64,000 nucleotides of DNA from Microbacterium sp. Leaf320 (GTDB lineage: Bacteria; Actinomycetota; Actinomycetes; Actinomycetales; Microbacteriaceae). Each line of letters opens with the position of its first letter. Within the stretch, counting starts at the first letter, position 1. A program made the position numbers and the translations under genes. The DNA lies in NCBI RefSeq assembly GCF_001423485.1, contig NZ_LMOD01000003.1, positions 385,527 through 449,526 on the forward strand. The letters are read 5' to 3'. The notes under the pieces were generated by a model. It worked only from the letters and a program-made list of their open reading frames with translations, searched no databases and had not been told where the DNA came from. Positions 26,001 through 63,461 of the stretch are shown in pieces.

Positions 26001-26073
<73 letters not shown>

Positions 26074-26150
26074 CTAGAGACCGGGAGGTCTCGGGGTGTC
26101 ATCTTCATCTTGCCACCGCAACCGGACCGGAAGGACCGGGGCACGGCGAA

Positions 26151-55682: not shown

Positions 55683-57044
55683 TCAGTCGGGAACCCTGCT
55701 GCGATAGCGCCGGGGCTTCCCCTCGCCGAGGTCGATGAGGCGTGCGACGCTGTGCAGTTCCACCGGCATCCCGAGCAGCGCGTGAAGAGCCGTGCGGATG
55801 CCTGCGTCGTCACCGCCCGCGATCGTCGCGCGCACCCGCCCGTCGTCGCCCTGCTCGATCGACCACCCCAGCGCACCTCTGGCCTGCAGCTGCTGCGTCA
55901 GCTCGACGCACGGCACGAGCGTGCCGTCGGCGGCGCGGAAGCGCGTGTTCTCGCGGCCTTCGAGGTCGGCGATGCCGAACGCGCCGTCTTCGAGGCGGAC
56001 CAGCCGGCCGAAGTCGCCGGTGCGATAACGCACCAGCGGCAGCAGCGGGTTCTCACCCGCGGTCACCACGATCTCTCCCATGACACCCGGGGGCACAGCG
56101 ACGTCTCGATGCGGTTCGAGAATCTCGACACGCACCCGCCGATCGAGGATCCGGAACGGCCCGTCGTCGGTGCGCGCGGCGATCGGGCGCGTCTCGTGGA
56201 GCCCGTAGACGTCGATCACCGGACATCCGAACGCCGTTTCGAGGCGCGCCCGCAGCGGTGCGGAGAGCGCCATGGCACCCGAGAAGATCACGGCGGGGTG
56301 CAGCACGGCGTCGAGTCCGGCATCCAGCAGCTCGGCGAGGCTCGTCGGATGCCCGCTCAGGATCTGCGGATCCGCCTCCGCGAGGAATCGGGCGCGTGCG
56401 TCGACGTCGTCCCACGCGGACGGATGCAGGTTCAGCCGGGCCATGGCGCGGTGCGAGAAGCTCGAGATCACCGACACGTAGGTGAACGCCTGCCTCTGGA
56501 AGACGAGGTTCGCCACTGCCATCCGCTCGTCGTCGGCGGCGACCGTGGCCCCGGCGGATGCGGCGAGCGCGACCAGCAGGTGGAAGCCGCGCGCGACCTC
56601 CTCGACGTCGTCGGGAATGAGCAGCGCCGCTCCGGTCGAGCCCGAGCTCGTGCCGTGCAGCATGCGGGAGAGATCCGCATCGAGCGGCACGAACGCGGCG
56701 AGGTCGTCGACGAGGTCGGCCCGTGCGATCGTCGGGAAGTCCTCGAGCGCGGCATCCTCCGGCATCCCCCGATAGCGCAGCGTGCGCCGCGCGGCCGCGA
56801 GATGTTCGCGGAGCCAGCCGTCGGCGGAGAGCGGATGCCGCACCCGCTCGGCCTGCTCGGCGGTGAGGCGGTCACCCGTGGCGTGGGTCCACTGGGGAGC
56901 GTCAGAATGCGCACGCCAGTGCGTGAGTCTCGACACTCCCCCGGCATCGATGGTCGGCCAGCGCTCCGCGTCGGTGAGCACGGCAGCCTCTCCCGGCGCG
57001 TACTCGGCGAGGGTCAGCGCACCTCTGAGATCGGGGTCACTCAC
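55683..57044 (-). CDS. PaaK/F390-synthetase-like adenylate-forming enzyme, operon gene 5
   Basis: The product has 453 residues from a GTG at 57044. The adenylation motifs are recognisable: HGTSSGSTGAALL (P-loop-like A3, 130-142), VYGLHETRP (A5), and PLVRYRTGDFGRL (A8, binding AMP ribose). The overall order matches phenylacetate-CoA ligase (PaaK) and F390 synthetase-like proteins. Such enzymes join a carboxylate to AMP and then to CoA or another acceptor. The substrate is unknown. The gene overlaps the preceding one by eight bases and is the last of five overlapping genes headed by a MoxR ATPase, an unusual setting for a PaaK relative. It could modify a small molecule or protein in that system; this is inference. 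Confidence 0.8.
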   Translation of the reverse strand: MSDPDLRGALTLAEYAPGEAAVLTDAERWPTIDAGGVSRLTHWRAHSDAPQWTHATGDRLTAEQAERVRHPLSADGWLREHLAAARRTLRYRGMPEDAALEDFPTIARADLVDDLAAFVPLDADLSRMLHGTSSGSTGAALLIPDDVEEVARGFHLLVALAASAGATVAADDERMAVANLVFQRQAFTYVSVISSFSHRAMARLNLHPSAWDDVDARARFLAEADPQILSGHPTSLAELLDAGLDAVLHPAVIFSGAMALSAPLRARLETAFGCPVIDVYGLHETRPIAARTDDGPFRILDRRVRVEILEPHRDVAVPPGVMGEIVVTAGENPLLPLVRYRTGDFGRLVRLEDGAFGIADLEGRENTRFRAADGTLVPCVELTQQLQARGALGWSIEQGDDGRVRATIAGGDDAGIRTALHALLGMPVELHSVARLIDLGEGKPRRYRSRVPD

Positions 57045-57645
57045 TGGAGTACCGCGCCGCCGCCTCCTTGCGGCGGGCCTCGTCGAGTTTGCGGGCGATG
57101 TCGGCGCGGTGCCTGTGGCCCTCGTATGCCTCGGCGAGCGCCCGGTCGCGGGCCAGGGAGTCGCACGCGGCGAGAAGCGACGCGGCGGTCGCCGCATCCT
57201 CCCCCGCAGGAAGGAAGCCGCACCAGAGCAGGAACGTGCGGGCGGCCTCGGTGCGCCGCTCATCATCGGAGGTCCACTCCGCGGGAGCGGCGACCGGGGC
57301 GACACGCAGAGCGAGCGCATCGACGGCGAGGGCGGCCCGTCCGGTCGAGAGCGCCGGGACGAGCGGCTCGATGAGCCCCTCGCTGGCGACGAGCCACAGT
57401 CCGATCGCGGCCCCTTGGCGCACACGGGGGTCGTCGTCGAACCGGACGGAGACGATCTGACCGCCGAGGACGTCTCCCGCGAGGGCGCGCAGCGAGATCC
57501 GCTCGTCGAGGAACTCCTGGGGCACGCGGGAGATGCGAGCGGCGACCGACTCGAGCGAGGGCCCTTGTCTCGTGCGCGCCCAGGCCTCGGGCTCTCCGCC
57601 CGATCGCTCGCTCCACGCGGCGAGCAGCGCCTCGGTCTCAGCCAT
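57037..57645 (-). CDS. unknown helical protein, operon gene 4
   Basis: The product has 202 residues. Mostly helical, with Ala/Leu/Val-rich units (DPRVRQGAAIGLWLVASEGLIEPLVPALSTG) that resemble two HEAT-type repeats around residues 70-110, and a charged C-terminal helix (IARKLDEARRKEAAARY) that could form a coiled coil. No catalytic motif is visible. The start at 57645 overlaps the vWA gene's stop by eight bases and its end overlaps the PaaK-like gene, so it is made together with both. It is probably an adaptor between the vWA protein and the ligase-like protein; no family recognised. Confidence 0.72.
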   Translation of the reverse strand: MAETEALLAAWSERSGGEPEAWARTRQGPSLESVAARISRVPQEFLDERISLRALAGDVLGGQIVSVRFDDDPRVRQGAAIGLWLVASEGLIEPLVPALSTGRAALAVDALALRVAPVAAPAEWTSDDERRTEAARTFLLWCGFLPAGEDAATAASLLAACDSLARDRALAEAYEGHRHRADIARKLDEARRKEAAARYSSE

Positions 57646-59512
57646 GCAGCGCCTCTGCCAGGGCCGCGCACGCCGCCGGCGCGTCCGCCATCGTCTGCAG
57701 GTACACCACGTCGTAGCCGTCGCGCTCGGCGAGCTGGGCGACCTGGTGTCTGCGATCCATGAGCACGAGCGTACCGGTCGTGAGCACCTCTCGAACGGTG
57801 CGGGCGACACCCTGGTACGGCTCGTTGCCGACGCCGAACATCGACACCAGTCCGTCGTCGGAGAGCACCACCACGTGCCGCTGGTCGTCGTCGCCCGCCG
57901 GCGGAAGCCCCGCGTATCTCGCGGCGTACAGGTCGAGCGGGAACGACGTCGACCTGCCGAAGAACAGCGAGATCGCGGCGATGATCTCAGCGGGGTCGCG
58001 GCCGAACCGCGGCATCCCCGCCACCTCTCCCGTGCCCGAGAAGCTCGTGACCCTGACTCTTCCTCCGCCGCGGAGGATCGACAGCGCGAGGATCGTGCCG
58101 GCGAGCACGGCGGGCGAGCCGTTGCGCGGATGCGTCATCGACCCCGAGGAGTCGATGTAGAGGTCGAGCTCGAGACTCGTCTCGCGGACGATCGGCTCGT
58201 CGTCGAGCTCCGAACGCCGACGGGTCGTGACCCCGGGAATCACGGTCCCCGACCTCAGAGTGAGCGGCCAGTCGAGGTCGGCGAGTGCGTCTCCCACCTC
58301 CCAGAGCTCGACGGGCCCGGGGATGCCGCCGGTCGGCGTCGACGGAGCCTGGCGCGTGTACGGGCGCACCCATGCGGCCGCTTCGTTGCGATACCAGGCG
58401 GCGAGCACGGCATCCTCACCGCTCTCGCGGTACAGCGCGAGAGTGCGCGCGATCGTCAGACGCTGTCCGTCCTTCTTCGCTCCCTCGTCGGTCGTGTCCT
58501 CCGGATCGCCCTGTCCGTCCGGGGCCCTCACCATGCCGGGGTGCCGCGGCAGGTCGTCGCGCAGGCGCTGGTCGGCAAGGATGCGGCCGAGCTCATCGGC
58601 GGTGGCCGGAGCGTCGTCGACACCGCACCCGGCGAGCGGTTCGCCAGCACCGATCTCCGCCGCTCCCGCCTGCTCGGCGAGATAGGGGGCTGCGATCACC
58701 CCGAACAGCGCGGCCCCCGAGACCGGGTCGGTGGCGAAGGAGCGCACGGCGTCCGCGACGAGAGCGGCATCGACGGCCGGGTTCGTCGCCGTCGCTCCGG
58801 CGAGCTCTGCCGCCACCCTCTCGCGTTCGGTCTGGGCTGCACGCAGCAGGCGTTCCTTCTCACGGTGTTTCTCGGGGATCTGGCTCAGCGGCACGAGGGT
58901 GGTCTGCACGCGAGCGCGCTCCGGTCGGGGCGGCGGCTCGAGCGGGCACAGGGTGCCTGCCGGCAGCTGCCAGAGCAGCTCGTACGCGCGGCAGTACACC
59001 CACCACAGCCGGTCGCCGCTGCCCTCGGGGGCCGGATAGAGTGCGAGGCCGAGCCGGACGATGCCGAGGTCGCGGGTGGCCGTGGCCCCGCCCTCCTTCT
59101 CCGCCCGTTGCAGCTGGGCGACGCGTGTGTTCACGAGCAGATCGCACCACAGGTTCGAGAGTCTCCGCGCCCCTTCCCCCGCCTTCACGCGCGCGGTGGC
59201 GGCGGTGATCGCGCGCGCCATCTGATGGTCGATCTTGAGCGAATCGATCCGTGTGCTCGGCGCCAGCACATGGTGCCCGATCTCGTGGGCAAACATGCTC
59301 CACAGCTCGTCGGCGAGCCCGCGGTCGGCGAGGTAGCGCGGGTCGACGGTCACCGACGGAGGGAACGAGAACCACGCGGGGGCACCGTGCGCATCGGCGG
59401 CGCCCGGTCGGACCGTCGGGTCGTCGAGCCACACCCGCCACAGGGCGAGCGCCCGCTCCCACGCTGATCGGGCGTCGTCGGTGAGCGGGACCCGATCGGG
59501 GAGGGACGTCAC
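57638..59512 (-). CDS. metallopeptidase-like plus vWA domain protein, operon gene 3
   Basis: The product has 624 residues from a GTG. An N-terminal zinc-peptidase-like domain has HEIGHH at residues 76-81 (HExxH), and the helix LWCDLLVN (121-128) offers an Asp that could be a third ligand, as in peptidase-vWA proteins of the DUF2201 type. The middle (about 190-440) is charged and variable. The C-terminal vWA domain has an intact metal-ion-dependent adhesion site: DSSGSM at 454-459, Thr/Ser in VTSFSGTGEVAG, and Asp in VVLSDDGLVSMF. vWA proteins encoded beside MoxR ATPases act as their adaptors in metal insertion or complex remodelling. GTGA overlap with the gene upstream and eight bases with the gene downstream. 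Confidence 0.85.
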   Translation of the reverse strand: MTSLPDRVPLTDDARSAWERALALWRVWLDDPTVRPGAADAHGAPAWFSFPPSVTVDPRYLADRGLADELWSMFAHEIGHHVLAPSTRIDSLKIDHQMARAITAATARVKAGEGARRLSNLWCDLLVNTRVAQLQRAEKEGGATATRDLGIVRLGLALYPAPEGSGDRLWWVYCRAYELLWQLPAGTLCPLEPPPRPERARVQTTLVPLSQIPEKHREKERLLRAAQTERERVAAELAGATATNPAVDAALVADAVRSFATDPVSGAALFGVIAAPYLAEQAGAAEIGAGEPLAGCGVDDAPATADELGRILADQRLRDDLPRHPGMVRAPDGQGDPEDTTDEGAKKDGQRLTIARTLALYRESGEDAVLAAWYRNEAAAWVRPYTRQAPSTPTGGIPGPVELWEVGDALADLDWPLTLRSGTVIPGVTTRRRSELDDEPIVRETSLELDLYIDSSGSMTHPRNGSPAVLAGTILALSILRGGGRVRVTSFSGTGEVAGMPRFGRDPAEIIAAISLFFGRSTSFPLDLYAARYAGLPPAGDDDQRHVVVLSDDGLVSMFGVGNEPYQGVARTVREVLTTGTLVLMDRRHQVAQLAERDGYDVVYLQTMADAPAACAALAEALHG

Positions 59513-60183
59513 TCCTGCTCCCGCACGTGCACCCAGGCCAGATGCGTGTCCGGCCCGATCACGATGGTCACCCCGTCATCGCTCGACTCGGTCGTCGTCG
59601 GTCGCTCGGGAAGCAGGGAGAGCCGCGCGCCCCACACGTCGCTGTCGAGACGCCACCAGGAGCCGGCGACGAGAAACGCGAAGGCCCCGTCATCCGGCAG
59701 GCGTTCCACACGCTCGGGAGGACGGACCCACGCACCGCCGAGGCCTCGGAAGCCTCCGGTGGCGAGCACGTATCCCCGCTGATCGGCACGGCCCGGCCAC
59801 CAGAAGCGATCGCTCCGCTGCCGGCGCCGGAACTCGTCGAGCAGGTCGACGCCGATGCCGAGGGCCGCAGCGGCCGCCACCCGATGCTCCGCGGAGTCGA
59901 GATCGTCGAGTCTGCTGAGAGCATCGACGCGCAGCCCGAGTGCGCCCGCGCGCCACGCGGCGATCGCGACGAGATCGAGCGCTCGCTCGCGGTCGGTCAA
60001 GGACGCCGGGTCGAACTCGATGCCCGCGGCGAGCGCTCGTCCGAACAGCAGAGGATCACCGTGGGCAGCCCGCACCGACTCCGCCGCGAGCGCCGCATCG
60101 AGCCCCGAAGCTGAGAGATCGGGACGCTCGGCGAGTGGGAACGGCGCCGACACGTTCGCCAGCTGCACCGGGACGCGGTTCAC
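59509..60183 (-). CDS. unknown Trp-rich protein, operon gene 2
   Basis: The product has 224 residues from a GTG at 60183 that overlaps the MoxR gene's stop by four bases (GTGA). The first half is helical and Ala/Leu-rich; the second half is beta-rich with repeated Trp (FWWPGRADQRGYVLATGG at 128-145, GGAWVRPPERVERL, SWWRLDSDVWGARL) spaced like short beta-hairpins. I recognise no family. In MoxR-vWA gene sets a third, lineage-specific protein often accompanies the pair; this would be that component, but the match is by position only. Confidence 0.72.
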   Translation of the reverse strand: MNRVPVQLANVSAPFPLAERPDLSASGLDAALAAESVRAAHGDPLLFGRALAAGIEFDPASLTDRERALDLVAIAAWRAGALGLRVDALSRLDDLDSAEHRVAAAAALGIGVDLLDEFRRRQRSDRFWWPGRADQRGYVLATGGFRGLGGAWVRPPERVERLPDDGAFAFLVAGSWWRLDSDVWGARLSLLPERPTTTESSDDGVTIVIGPDTHLAWVHVREQE

Positions 60184-61748
60184 CCGCTCAGCTCCTGCCA
60201 CCGGACGTATGCCGTGTAGCGCTGATGCAGGTACTTCAGCGCGATGACGTCGTCGAAGTCGCGCCCGTACAGCTTGCCGACCGTGGCGATCCGGCGCAGC
60301 TGAGCCTCGACCGCGGTGATGCGACGAGAGGCCTCGAGTGCCGGAAGGCCGTCGAGGCCGCGGTCGAACTCCGCGAGGAGCGCGGCCACCTCGTCGTCGG
60401 CATCGCGTCCGAGCGCGTCGTACTGTCGGCACGACTGGGCGAAAAGATCGGCCAGCCAGCTGACGGTGTCGGTGCTGAGTTCGCGCTCGGCTCCGACGTC
60501 GAAGCGCGGATGCGTGGCGTTGGGCAGCAGCTTGCCACGGAGCACGAACGGCAGGACCGCCGCGACGTCGTCGAGCTCGACGGCGTCCACGCCCCGGAAC
60601 CAGGCCATGCCCTTGGCGTACATGATGAGCGTCTGCAGAGCGCGCACCGAGAGTCCGTTGCGGGTCTGCGCCCCGAGATCGACCTCGAGATCGGCACCGC
60701 TGTTCGCCTCGATGACCTCGCCGACGCGTCCGCCCGCGGTCGTCACGACGTCCTTGGTGCGGTATTCGAAACGGCGTCCGCCGTGCTGCACGAACTCGAA
60801 GTGGCTGAGGAAGAACCGCAGGCGCTCGCGCACGGCATCCGGGATGGGCACCGCGCGGATCTGCGCGCGCATCTCGGACTGCTGCGCCGGGTCGAACGAG
60901 AGCTCGGACGGCACGTGCTCCTCAGGCTTCTCCCCCGCCTCGACCCGGGTGATCAGCTCGTCGAAGAACCGGCTGTTGAACCCGGCCGCCTGCACGGTGA
61001 CGTCCATGCGGTCGCGCAGCGCCTGGATGACCGGGAAGGTGCCGCCGCCCGCGTCATCGTTCGCGGTGAAGAACCAGCTCTCCACTCCGCCGTCCGGCGC
61101 GGTGCGGCGCATCTGGTCGTGGCTCTCGACGTAGCCCTCCGCGACCATCGTCAGCAGCGCCGACTGGGTCTTGGTGGGGATCCGGTTGTACTCGTCGATG
61201 ATCTTGACGGGAAGGCCCAGCCAGTCGCGCCAGGCGATGCGGATGTCGGTCAGCCGCTCGGCTCCGACGAGATCGCGCGGCAACGGGATGCCGACGAGAT
61301 CGCTGACCGTGAGCTGCGGCTGCCCCTGCTGCACGGCCCGCCTGACGTCCGCCGACGAGGTGCCCGCGAGCACCCCCATGAGCACGGCGACGGTGGTCTT
61401 GCCCCGACCGGGCCCGCCGATCAGCAGGCATTTGCCGCCCACCGCGAACGTGAGCAGCGGCACGAGGACGTTGGATGAGAACGACGCCTGGGTCGGCAGC
61501 GATACGGCAGCCCCGGCATCGCCCAGCCCGATCAAGAGCGGCTCGCCGTGCGAGAACTCCATGTCGTAGTAGGGCGAGATCACCGCCCGATTGACGATCC
61601 AGTAGTAGACCTGGCGGAGCTTCTCGTCGAGCGGAACCGCGGCCCGTGCGGCCGGACGGAACAGGTCTTCGGCGGTCAGCGCCTCGACGCCGTGTCCGCT
61701 GCCGGGGTTCGTGGGCGAGGCGGAGACTCTGTTCCAGCGGTCGGGCAT
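60180..61748 (-). CDS. MoxR-type AAA+ ATPase, operon gene 1
   Basis: The product has 522 residues. Walker A is GGPGRGKTT (111-119), Walker B is VKIIDEYNR (181-189) with D185/E186, and the sensor 1 Asn is in SWFFTANDDAGGG. An Arg-rich FNSRFFDELI may supply the arginine finger. It is longer than basic MoxR proteins (about 330 residues), with about 100 extra residues at the N-terminus and a helical C-terminal 120 residues. MoxR ATPases form rings that remodel partner complexes, usually with a vWA adaptor, here encoded two genes downstream. TAGGAT six bases before the ATG marks a leaderless promoter inside the end of nadR, giving the five genes their own transcript. Confidence 0.88.
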   Translation of the reverse strand: MPDRWNRVSASPTNPGSGHGVEALTAEDLFRPAARAAVPLDEKLRQVYYWIVNRAVISPYYDMEFSHGEPLLIGLGDAGAAVSLPTQASFSSNVLVPLLTFAVGGKCLLIGGPGRGKTTVAVLMGVLAGTSSADVRRAVQQGQPQLTVSDLVGIPLPRDLVGAERLTDIRIAWRDWLGLPVKIIDEYNRIPTKTQSALLTMVAEGYVESHDQMRRTAPDGGVESWFFTANDDAGGGTFPVIQALRDRMDVTVQAAGFNSRFFDELITRVEAGEKPEEHVPSELSFDPAQQSEMRAQIRAVPIPDAVRERLRFFLSHFEFVQHGGRRFEYRTKDVVTTAGGRVGEVIEANSGADLEVDLGAQTRNGLSVRALQTLIMYAKGMAWFRGVDAVELDDVAAVLPFVLRGKLLPNATHPRFDVGAERELSTDTVSWLADLFAQSCRQYDALGRDADDEVAALLAEFDRGLDGLPALEASRRITAVEAQLRRIATVGKLYGRDFDDVIALKYLHQRYTAYVRWQELSG

Positions 61749-61752
61749 GCGA

Positions 61753-62823
61753 TCATCCTAACGATGTCGATCGGGCGTGCCGCTGGAGCGCACGCTGCTC
61801 GTCGATCGGCCGTGCCTCGAGCGGAACCGCGAAGCTCAGGTGCTCGGCGAGGAGGGGCTGCAGAGCGGATGCCGCGGCCTCGACCCGTGTCGGCACATCG
61901 CCACGCACCTCGAGCCAGGGCACGTCCTGCGTCGCCAGCACATCGCGGAAGCGCTGCTGCATGCCATGGCGGATGTCCTCGCCGTCGCGCATGCCGTCCT
62001 GCTCGAACGGGATCTCGTCGCCCGTGAGCACGTAGAGCAGCGGCCGATGCGCGGCCGCGGCCTCGTACAGGCGCGCGGCCGTCGAACCGACGTAGCGCTC
62101 GTGCCACAGAGCTGTCGCGAGCACGTCGGTGTCGCAGACCAGCACCGGCACCGGCACCTCCCGCAGAGCGCGCCGTTCGAGAGCGACCTGCCGATCGACG
62201 ATCAGGTCGAACTCGTCGCTGCGCCACGGCGCATCCAGGCCCCCCTCGCGGATCTCGGAGTGCTCGCGACCGTACTCCGGCACCCACAGCGTTCCCAGCA
62301 TCTCGGCCAGCGCCGCAGCGAGAGTCGTGGACCCGGTGGACTCCGCCCCCAGCACCACGACACGGGCGGTCAGCCAGGCGCGTACCGCCGGCGCCAGCTC
62401 GTGCCAGTTGCCGGCGACATCGGCGCGGATGGCAGTCCCCGAGACGGGGTTGATGCGCCGCCCCTCGTCGATCCGCACCCAGCGGGCATCCAGTCGCCTC
62501 GCCAGCTCGCCCCCGTAGGCATCGCACGAGAACACGGTGTCGACGGGCTCGTCGACCAGCGACTCGATCAGCGCCATGTGCTCGTCCCACGCGGCCTCCG
62601 ATTCGAAGTCGACCGGGGCGTCGTCCATCGCGGCGACCACCCGCACACCCGGGTGCGACTCACGGATCCAGTCGGCGCGCACCTCGAGCGGGATCGACTC
62701 GACCGAGGCGCCGAGCACCTGGACGGTGACGCGGTCGCTCGCGCGCTGCGCCTGGCGGATGAGATGCGAGTGCCCGCTGTGGAACGGGTAGAACTTGCCG
62801 AGGACCAGGCCGTGACCGCTCAT
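61753..62823 (-). CDS. nadR: NadR-like bifunctional NMN adenylyltransferase/ribosylnicotinamide kinase
   Basis: The product has 356 residues. The N-terminal nucleotidyltransferase domain has GKFYPFHSGHSHL (HxGH-type H15-S-G-H18) and the SGTAIR signature (128-133). The C-terminal kinase domain starts with VVVLGAESTGSTT. In canonical P-loops the residue at 165 is Lys (GxxxxGKT); here it is Ser165. LVCDTDVLATALW and DVPWLEVRGD follow the NadR kinase layout. There is no N-terminal helix-turn-helix, unlike the enteric NadR, so it is an enzyme and not a repressor. With PnuC next door it should take up ribosylnicotinamide and make NAD. A GAGGGGG ribosome site precedes the ATG. Confidence 0.88.
   Translation of the reverse strand: MSGHGLVLGKFYPFHSGHSHLIRQAQRASDRVTVQVLGASVESIPLEVRADWIRESHPGVRVVAAMDDAPVDFESEAAWDEHMALIESLVDEPVDTVFSCDAYGGELARRLDARWVRIDEGRRINPVSGTAIRADVAGNWHELAPAVRAWLTARVVVLGAESTGSTTLAAALAEMLGTLWVPEYGREHSEIREGGLDAPWRSDEFDLIVDRQVALERRALREVPVPVLVCDTDVLATALWHERYVGSTAARLYEAAAAHRPLLYVLTGDEIPFEQDGMRDGEDIRHGMQQRFRDVLATQDVPWLEVRGDVPTRVEAAASALQPLLAEHLSFAVPLEARPIDEQRALQRHARSTSLG
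61755..61760 (-). promoter_or_regulatory. -10 element of the leaderless MoxR operon
   Basis: TAGGAT on the minus strand ends six bases before the ATG and overlaps the nadR stop codon. Confidence 0.55.
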
Positions 62824-62833
62824 GCCCGCCCCC

Positions 62834-63454
62834 TCAGGCCCGAGCGGGAGCAGACGTCGCTCCCGTCGCCGCAGAATCGCGATCGGTGCCCGCGACCCGC
62901 CGCCACGATCGGTAGCCGATCACGCAGAGTCCGATGAAGAGGGCGTACAACGCGGCGATGACCCAGAGGCCCGCGACGATCGACAGGCCGACGAATGCGA
63001 TGTCGACGCCGATCCAGACGAACCAGTTCTCGATCCACTTGCGGTTGAGCATGTACTGCGCCACGAGGCTCGCGGCGGTCGTCGCGGCATCCGGGATCGC
63101 CACCTGCGAGTCGGTGAACGTGGTGAGCACCCAGACCAGCACGGCAGCGCCGGCGATCGCGGCGAGCGCCAGCCACGGCCATGCTCGGCGCGGGGTGTGC
63201 ACGACGTACGTGCGGCTCTGCTCGGCGCCGTGCGTCCAGCGCCACCAGCCGTGCACTCCCATGAGCAGATAGACGACCTGCAGCACTGCCGTGGCGTAGA
63301 GCCCCGCGCCGATGAAGACGACGAACAGCACGACGTTGTTGGCGATGCCGATCGGGTAGTTCCAGACGTTCCGACGCCCGGCGAGCCAGACGCAGACCGC
63401 TCCCGTGACGAAACCGAGAACCTGAGGCCACTCGGCCTGGAGCCATTCGAGCAC
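62834..63454 (-). CDS. pnuC: nicotinamide riboside transporter PnuC
   Basis: The product has 206 residues from a GTG at 63454 with AGGAG four bases upstream. Seven or so membrane helices. The PnuC core is visible: GRRNVWNYPIGIANNVVLFVVFIG with the substrate-binding Trp/Asn, LYATAVLQVVYLLMGVHGWWRW, and MLNRKWIENWFVWIGVDIAFVGL near the end. It carries nicotinamide riboside across the membrane by facilitated diffusion, trapped inside by phosphorylation by the NadR-type kinase encoded ten bases downstream. The longer open frame upstream overlaps murB and lacks protein character. Confidence 0.93.
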   Translation of the reverse strand: MLEWLQAEWPQVLGFVTGAVCVWLAGRRNVWNYPIGIANNVVLFVVFIGAGLYATAVLQVVYLLMGVHGWWRWTHGAEQSRTYVVHTPRRAWPWLALAAIAGAAVLVWVLTTFTDSQVAIPDAATTAASLVAQYMLNRKWIENWFVWIGVDIAFVGLSIVAGLWVIAALYALFIGLCVIGYRSWRRVAGTDRDSAATGATSAPARA

Positions 63455-63461
63455 GGGGCTC

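Follow-up and report, generated by a model that had tools for sequence, protein, structure and literature searches.

A putative portable gene unit of actinobacteria that joins a MoxR-vWA ATPase system and an adenylate-forming enzyme to pnuC-nadR

In a stretch of 64,000 nucleotides (nt) from Microbacterium sp. Leaf320 (contig NZ_LMOD01000003.1, positions 385,527 to 449,526; hereafter, the window), genes for a MoxR-type AAA+ ATPase, a protein combining zincin-like and vWA domains, and an adenylate-forming enzyme (ANL) belong to an array of seven genes on the minus strand. The array consists of two adjacent, co-inherited sets, pnuC-nadR and the cassette moxR-G2-zincin/vWA-G4-anl, and the gene order, the gene overlaps and the presence or absence of genes as blocks indicate that these sets form one portable unit. 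We interpret it, with a probability of roughly 0.45, as a remodelling machine resembling NorQ-NorD that would serve the ANL enzyme and would be tied to the supply of nicotinamide adenine dinucleotide (NAD), carried in a portable actinobacterial unit. The features of the unit, from its first gene to its last, are as follows.

62834..63454, minus strand: PnuC, a nicotinamide riboside transporter encoded by the first gene of the unit (79.1 bits with NCBIfam TIGR01528, cut-off 42.45, stretch 62834-63460)
61753..62823, minus strand: NadR, nicotinamide-nucleotide adenylyltransferase with a P-loop kinase domain that lacks the Walker A Lys (Pfam AAA_28 and CTP_transf_like above cut-off)
61755..61760, minus strand: -10-like box TAGGAT of a putative leaderless promoter, located inside the end of the NadR gene, 6 nt ahead of the MoxR ATG (from sequence)
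60180..61748, minus strand: MoxR-type AAA+ ATPase, 522 amino acids (aa) (Pfam AAA_lid_2, 30.4 bits against 22.7; AAA_3, 26.7 bits, just below 27)
59509..60183, minus strand: G2, 224 aa, helical N-terminal and beta C-terminal parts, no known family (AlphaFold2 predicted local distance difference test (pLDDT) score 93; best Foldseek match in PDB, E 0.57)
57638..59512, minus strand: zincin-like (HEIGHH) and C-terminal vWA protein, 624 aa (conserved HExxH and metal ion-dependent adhesion site (MIDAS); pLDDT 88.5; best Foldseek match, the NorD VWA domain)
57037..57645, minus strand: G4, 202 aa, a conserved protein of no known family (Pfam gives nothing above cut-off; present in 68 of 69 loci)
55683..57044, minus strand: ANL adenylate-forming enzyme, PaaK-like, 453 aa (Pfam AMP-binding, 37.5 bits against a cut-off of 29.9)

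The sequence-only reading had presented the last five genes, at 55683-61748 with overlaps of 4, 4, 8 and 8 bases, as an operon. The coordinates, overlaps and strand are exact, but the five genes are not the complete set: they form the downstream part of the seven-gene unit, whose pnuC and nadR genes had been missed. In the window and related loci, the overlap between MoxR and G2 is 4 nt in 50 of 52 cases and that between G2 and vWA is 4 nt in 52 of 53, and an overlap of 8 nt is the commonest value for both vWA/G4 (36/68) and G4/ANL (37/69); for these counts, the start codon was picked to bring the distance as close as possible to a 4-nt overlap, a choice in favour of overlaps, and one genus supplies many of the loci. 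Because the overlap lengths recur across related loci, the overlaps within the cassette are not due to chance. The proposed translational coupling of a MoxR-vWA set to a gene resembling those of coenzyme A (CoA) ligases is real. Among the loci retrieved with peptides typical of the cassette ANL, the PaaK-like gene is not usually found elsewhere: by the ANL profile, G4 lies just upstream of ANL in 68 of 69 loci, which rules out an accidental overlap of the ANL gene, and the sole exception (L032) is a locus in which the contig ends at this point.

The 69 loci, collected in a scan of public genomes with an ANL alignment, span Microbacterium, Agromyces, Agreia, Cryobacterium, Frigoribacterium, Cellulomonas, Cellulosimicrobium, Oerskovia, Sanguibacter, Occultella, Georgenia, Demequina, Mycobacterium, Actinomyces and other genera. 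According to profile searches, 56 of the 69 share the order PnuC, NadR, MoxR, vWA, G4 and ANL, with all six genes on the same strand. The remaining 13 comprise six loci truncated within the unit by the end of the contig (L028, L032, L045, L070, L072 and L073), five loci of Agreia, and two loci of Oerskovia in which NadR is located about 3.4 kb upstream, at the edge of the locus, with PnuC beyond view; all seven Agreia and Oerskovia genomes carry NadR, that of Agreia being of another type (42-43% identity) and encoded elsewhere. G2 is detected by its profile in 52 of 69 loci, the Cellulomonas-type G2 being longer and diverged, and of the 59 loci that hold both NadR and MoxR, 57 have them no more than 300 nt apart.

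The two sets also co-occur at the level of genomes. The search for the vWA protein among 98 related genomes yields eight; six of the seven besides the window's own have PnuC and NadR immediately ahead of MoxR, all on one strand, and the seventh locus (L015) is cut inside the vWA gene. In the same sample, the cassette is present in eight genomes, a close NadR in eight, and both in seven. Among 396 genomes of the order, 15 have the cassette and 16 have a close NadR, 13 of them having both (Fisher p 7.5e-20, uncorrected for descent). In this sample the cassette was called by the vWA profile alone, with the other genes checked in the window and in genomes G009, G071, G564, G646, G687, G751 and G777; one genome with a vWA match at E 9.7e-5 (G654) was not counted, since none of the seven families is found at that locus. 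The distance matrices of six genes (62 rows, after removal of eight cut loci) correlate with r of 0.887-0.955. Given their joint and separate occurrences, pnuC-nadR and the cassette are separable modules that are strongly associated. L142 and the Agromyces locus L043 form a natural pair that differs in having or lacking the cassette: L043 contains all seven genes, and L142, with the same gene upstream and a gene of the same type downstream, lacks just the five-gene cassette (compared by eye).

In the window, PnuC and NadR are separated by 10 nt by coordinates, the GTG start of PnuC having been placed with the help of the stop of MurB (63462) and the sequence upstream, and the NadR stop lies 4 nt before the MoxR ATG; across the loci, the PnuC and NadR genes overlap in 52 of 57 rows. 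NadR scores 165.3 bits with TIGR01526, below the cut-off of 341.15. Its nucleotidyltransferase motif HxGH is kept in 65 of 65 rows, and the Walker A motif of the kinase domain reads GAESTG[S/T]TT, with the Lys replaced in all 66 rows (by Ser in 43 and by Thr in 23). The change of this Lys to Thr is also seen in nine other readable NadR loci, five of which (L122, L138, L139, L143 and L144) have no cassette in view or in the genome. Judging by this motif, either the kinase would be inactive or another residue would serve instead of the Lys. Three genomes of the same genus as G071 (G514, G638 and G734) each contain one in-frame TGA inside the NadR match.

The position 5-8 nt before a start codon is the place expected for the -10 box of a leaderless promoter. 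A TANNNT box occupies this position in 36 of 65 MoxR rows and in 44 of 57 PnuC rows, where shuffled sequences would give 0.5 and 0.7, respectively, and in no row of NadR (0/58), G2 (0/52), vWA (0/67), G4 (0/68) or ANL (0/69); the start codon used was the one nearest to the profile start, and many loci come from one genus, so that the counts are not independent. The leaderless promoter that the sequence-only reading had placed before MoxR is thus supported by a conserved box. PnuC of the window, close behind MurB, has no TANNNT box before its start. A scan for sigma-70 promoters with two hexamers and for terminators gave one promoter-like and two terminator-like sites, none at the gene boundaries of the unit and in numbers near the shuffled background. 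As for a riboswitch or other RNA upstream, Rfam at gathering thresholds finds in the window a single match, a tRNA at 26003-26075 on the minus strand.

The catalytic motifs of the cassette proteins are nearly invariant (some rows in these counts represent one genome twice, namely L012/L048 and L016/L062). In MoxR, the Walker A and Walker B motifs, the sensor 1 Asn, the arginine finger and the sensor 2 Arg are kept in 74 of 74 rows, the finger and sensors being residues that we take to be such from their pattern; the MoxR of Microbacterium sp. Leaf159 (L025:5355-6862) is in two overlapping pieces in different frames, a frameshift or an assembly error. The MIDAS of the vWA domain (DxSxS, T, D) is intact in 77 of 77 rows. 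The zincin-like domain retains HExxH together with a downstream Asp (D124) and an Asn in all 76 rows, and D124 would be a candidate third metal ligand. The motifs read from the letters of the window, namely Walker A/B, HEIGHH and DSSGSM, are accordingly present and conserved. Pfam Peptidase_M48 matches 10 of 40 zincin-vWA rows, with E up to 0.1 and 2.4e-4 at best and the protein of the window unmatched, which makes the domain weakly M48-like; profile searches of the vWA protein and G2 against PDB gave mostly unrelated matches (best E 0.017), with M48 and Ste24p chains at E 0.22 and 0.37. In the ANL enzyme, the core motifs, presumably A3, A5 and A7, are near-invariant, and the Lys of the presumed A10 motif, which the protein of the window has, is kept in 64 of 76 rows.

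None of the five cassette proteins reaches the cut-off of any NCBIfam model, and Pfam yields no match above cut-off for G2, the zincin-vWA protein and G4 of the window, nor a convincing match for members of the G2 and G4 alignments. The 224- and 202-residue proteins that had been singled out for profile and structure searches thus belong to no known family (G2 by Pfam, Foldseek and PDB profiles, G4 by Pfam). G2 contains eight Trp among its 224 residues; Foldseek finds no PDB match below E 0.57, and since the best VIA-align Z is 4.1, G2 is left without an assigned fold, its C-terminal part matching propeller proteins at Z up to 4.1 and the missing match being no proof of a new fold. That G2 is an annotation artefact could be ruled out, given that all 64 loci with both MoxR and vWA (64/64) have an open reading frame (ORF) between these two genes and that the fold is confidently predicted; the simple ORF caller took a short or wrong frame in some loci (e.g., L031, L043, L088 and L089).

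The sites occupied by the unit differ between genera. In the window, the unit is flanked by murB on one side and, on the other, by a small VOC-like gene and then a gene for an aspartate aminotransferase (labels by reading). Out of ten cassette-free genomes of Microbacterium in which murB was located, four were opened, and in three of these the VOC-like gene comes immediately after murB, with the aminotransferase gene next, one of the three empty sites having a further small ORF between; the fourth genome has another gene at this place. In ten more distant loci that were read, the flanks change between genera, and among 563 flanking ORFs from 53 loci, just two groups, glycosidase-like and ABC-ATPase-like, both looking like common families, recur in three genera, and none in more. 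The trees of MoxR and NadR contain the same two main clades, and both group Mycobacterium and the metagenome-assembled genomes of Demequina, Propionicimonas and Phycicoccus with Microbacteriaceae, against taxonomy. These positions suggest transfer between families, with the cautions that the Mycobacterium branch is long, that binning errors are possible in the other three and that the MoxR row of L025 is frameshifted.

NorQ-NorD, a MoxR AAA+ ATPase and VWA protein that insert iron into nitric oxide (NO) reductase (PMC13036017), is among the closest known systems. As described there and in PMC9976466, a finger projecting from the VWA domain reaches into the central pore of the hexamer formed by the MoxR-type ATPase. 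Rotation powered by ATP has been proposed to extend the linker that leads to the N-terminal domain and so to make the client accessible to iron. The unit resembles this system in having a MoxR ATPase gene beside a gene for a two-domain protein with a C-terminal vWA domain and an intact MIDAS, but differs in the zincin-like HExxH N-terminal domain and in the additional ANL, G2, G4, PnuC and NadR; no NO reductase gene was found among the genes read beside the unit. The group 2.2 jumbo phages likewise encode a vWA co-chaperone fused to an N-terminal metallopeptidase and a MoxR partner, a chaperone pair proposed to act in virion assembly (passages of PMC7824862); the zincin-vWA protein has no match at E 1e-3 among 50,697 phage records. 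The ANL enzyme is similar to PaaK-type ligases, with the phenylacetate-CoA ligase 2y27 as the nearest solved sequence (E 1.7e-13) and the core motifs kept, but it scores 39.7 bits with TIGR02155 against an equivalog cut-off of 646.3. With each of the 12 NCBIfam models that it touches, its score stays far short of the cut-off, and in the loci found the enzyme is tied to the cassette.

In structure comparisons of the vWA model, the NorD VWA domain is the best Foldseek match (E 1.7e-5), NorD accounting for five of the top six rows; in VIA-align, the MIDAS domain of midasin (MDN1/Rea1) comes first (Z 15.1, root-mean-square deviation (rmsd) 3.8, 202 residues aligned), and NorD is aligned over 221 residues with Z 13.8 and rmsd 6.5. 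NorD and midasin both partner MoxR-type ATPases, and the matches count for a NorQ-NorD-like reading. As to a finger extension that would enter the ATPase pore, among the 50 matches listed the alignments with NorD and MDN1/Rea1 start at model residues 353-365 and the others at 379-448, but with Z tied.

In the mechanism that we favour, MoxR would form a hexamer on which the vWA protein docks as NorD does on NorQ, and ATP hydrolysis would drive remodelling of a client through the vWA MIDAS, with the zincin-like domain as the end that recognizes or cuts the client; by analogy, we consider this part rather probable. The ANL enzyme is the best candidate for the client because it is the constant last coupled gene; made alongside through translational coupling, it would be loaded, activated or released by the machine, with G4 as its bridge, an assignment that is possible but less likely than not. 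It is similarly possible, although somewhat doubtful, that the ANL reaction draws on the pool of NAD or nicotinamide mononucleotide (NMN) provided by PnuC and NadR, or repairs or modifies a nicotinamide-derived compound. The complete scheme, a MoxR-vWA machine of a new kind that has an adenylate-forming enzyme as its client and acts as an ATP-driven activator or quality control for carboxylate adenylation, is fed by imported nicotinamide riboside and makes or repairs an undescribed nicotinamide-linked compound or protein modification, seems unlikely as a whole. That the ANL enzyme and the peptidase would be gated by the ATPase, as the sequence-only reading had it, is plausible by analogy, and the physiological role appears to be metabolic or stress-related rather than antiviral.

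Several observations weigh against this interpretation. The Foldseek TM-score for NorD is just 0.23 of the query, the VIA-align Z-scores for NorD and MDN1 are tied with those of ordinary vWA domains, and the A10 Lys is missing in 12 of 76 ANL rows. The 69 loci were retrieved with peptides typical of the cassette ANL, so the search is biased, and the limit for a close NadR (1e-100) was set after the list had been viewed, 35 of the 396 genomes having some match and 16 a close one. Both the matrix correlation and the co-occurrence partly reflect shared descent. The sets also occur apart: PnuC-NadR alone is found in L142, L143 and L144, in genomes with generic MoxR matches only, and the cassette lacks an adjoining PnuC-NadR in L114, L140 and L141 and in the five Agreia loci. 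Finally, 19 of 60 rows have a MoxR start that lies across the stop of NadR, and therefore, outside Microbacteriaceae, both sets may be one operon.

The sequence-only reading had raised a defence-like role, and passages of Kaur et al. (2020; PMC7159879) describe MoxR-vWA conflict systems in which a metallopeptidase domain is a rare effector. On such an explanation, the ANL and zincin components would be effectors and NAD salvage would serve recovery after NAD depletion. The ternary conflict systems resemble the unit in combining a MoxR-vWA core with further genes and in their patchy distribution, and the presence of the vWA protein in 8 of 98 relatives, the block presence/absence and the tree positions that suggest transfer between families are all in line with defence. 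The unit differs, however, in that Pfam recognizes no FtsH or other named third component (VMAP, iSTAND or beta-propeller protein) in the five proteins and no variable effector is fused to the vWA domain, HExxH being constant in 76 of 76 rows; fvmX3, a domain of the FtsH ternary system, is matched by 1 of 40 vWA rows at a weak E of 0.062. Furthermore, the PADLOC models return nothing for four of the five proteins and, for MoxR, only P-loop matches that are weak (best E 0.0039), MoxR has no plasmid match at E 1e-40, the vWA protein has no phage match, the recurrent partner is NAD salvage, and the flanks in the clade of the window read as housekeeping genes (labels by reading; defence islands were not surveyed). 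No specific evidence favours a defence function, which is quite improbable.

A biosynthetic cluster, in which a carboxylic acid activated by ANL is joined to a part derived from NMN or NAD and the MoxR-vWA pair metallates one of the pathway enzymes, would fit the mostly intact ANL motifs, the frequent PnuC-NadR neighbour and the NorQ-NorD precedent for metal insertion; it is nevertheless unlikely, given that the surroundings of the unit in 53 loci show no further recurrent enzyme or carrier and that the ANL enzyme reaches the cut-off of no named ANL family. Finally, the MoxR machine could act in the maturation of NadR, a kinase without the Walker A Lys, or of another NAD enzyme. The closeness of NadR to MoxR in nearly all loci that hold both (57/59) and the replacement of the Lys in 66 of 66 rows speak for such a role, but the identical loss of Lys in NadR of cassette-free genomes and the occurrence of PnuC-NadR without the cassette in L142-L144 make it very improbable.

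MoxR-vWA machines are widespread and, to our knowledge, few have known clients. In the unit analysed here, conserved overlaps between the genes and their inheritance as a block tie such a machine, in many families of actinobacteria, to its own adenylating enzyme and mostly also to NAD salvage; the unit thus offers a small, genetically separable set in which client and reaction could be sought directly, and its product or protected target is a good experimental question. The combination is real and tightly conserved, and it is a variant of the MoxR-vWA kind that we have not found described: among the papers listed in searches of the open-licence literature, titles and abstract openings yielded no description of a MoxR cluster with NadR, PnuC, AMP-binding, phenylacetate-CoA ligase or nicotinamide riboside, nor a link between AAA+ remodelling and NAD metabolism, and in the main text of PMC7159879 the terms "CoA ligase", "AMP-binding" and "NadR" have 0 occurrences.

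Beyond the order, the vWA profile matched 18 of 396 genomes of the phylum. One of these (G255) encodes MoxR, vWA, G4 and ANL together with an ORF in the G2 slot, with no PnuC-NadR in the 19 kb that were read, and seven that were opened of the other 16 non-own matches contain a MoxR-vWA pair with no G4, NadR or cassette-type ANL. Given these pairs without the rest of the cassette, the MoxR-vWA core is probably older than the cassette. In two wider relatives of the zincin-vWA protein, also from MoxR-vWA pairs (L115 and L116), HExxH is absent, with QLLHY and QMLHY found instead, which suggests that the peptidase-like fold was retained there as a binding domain.

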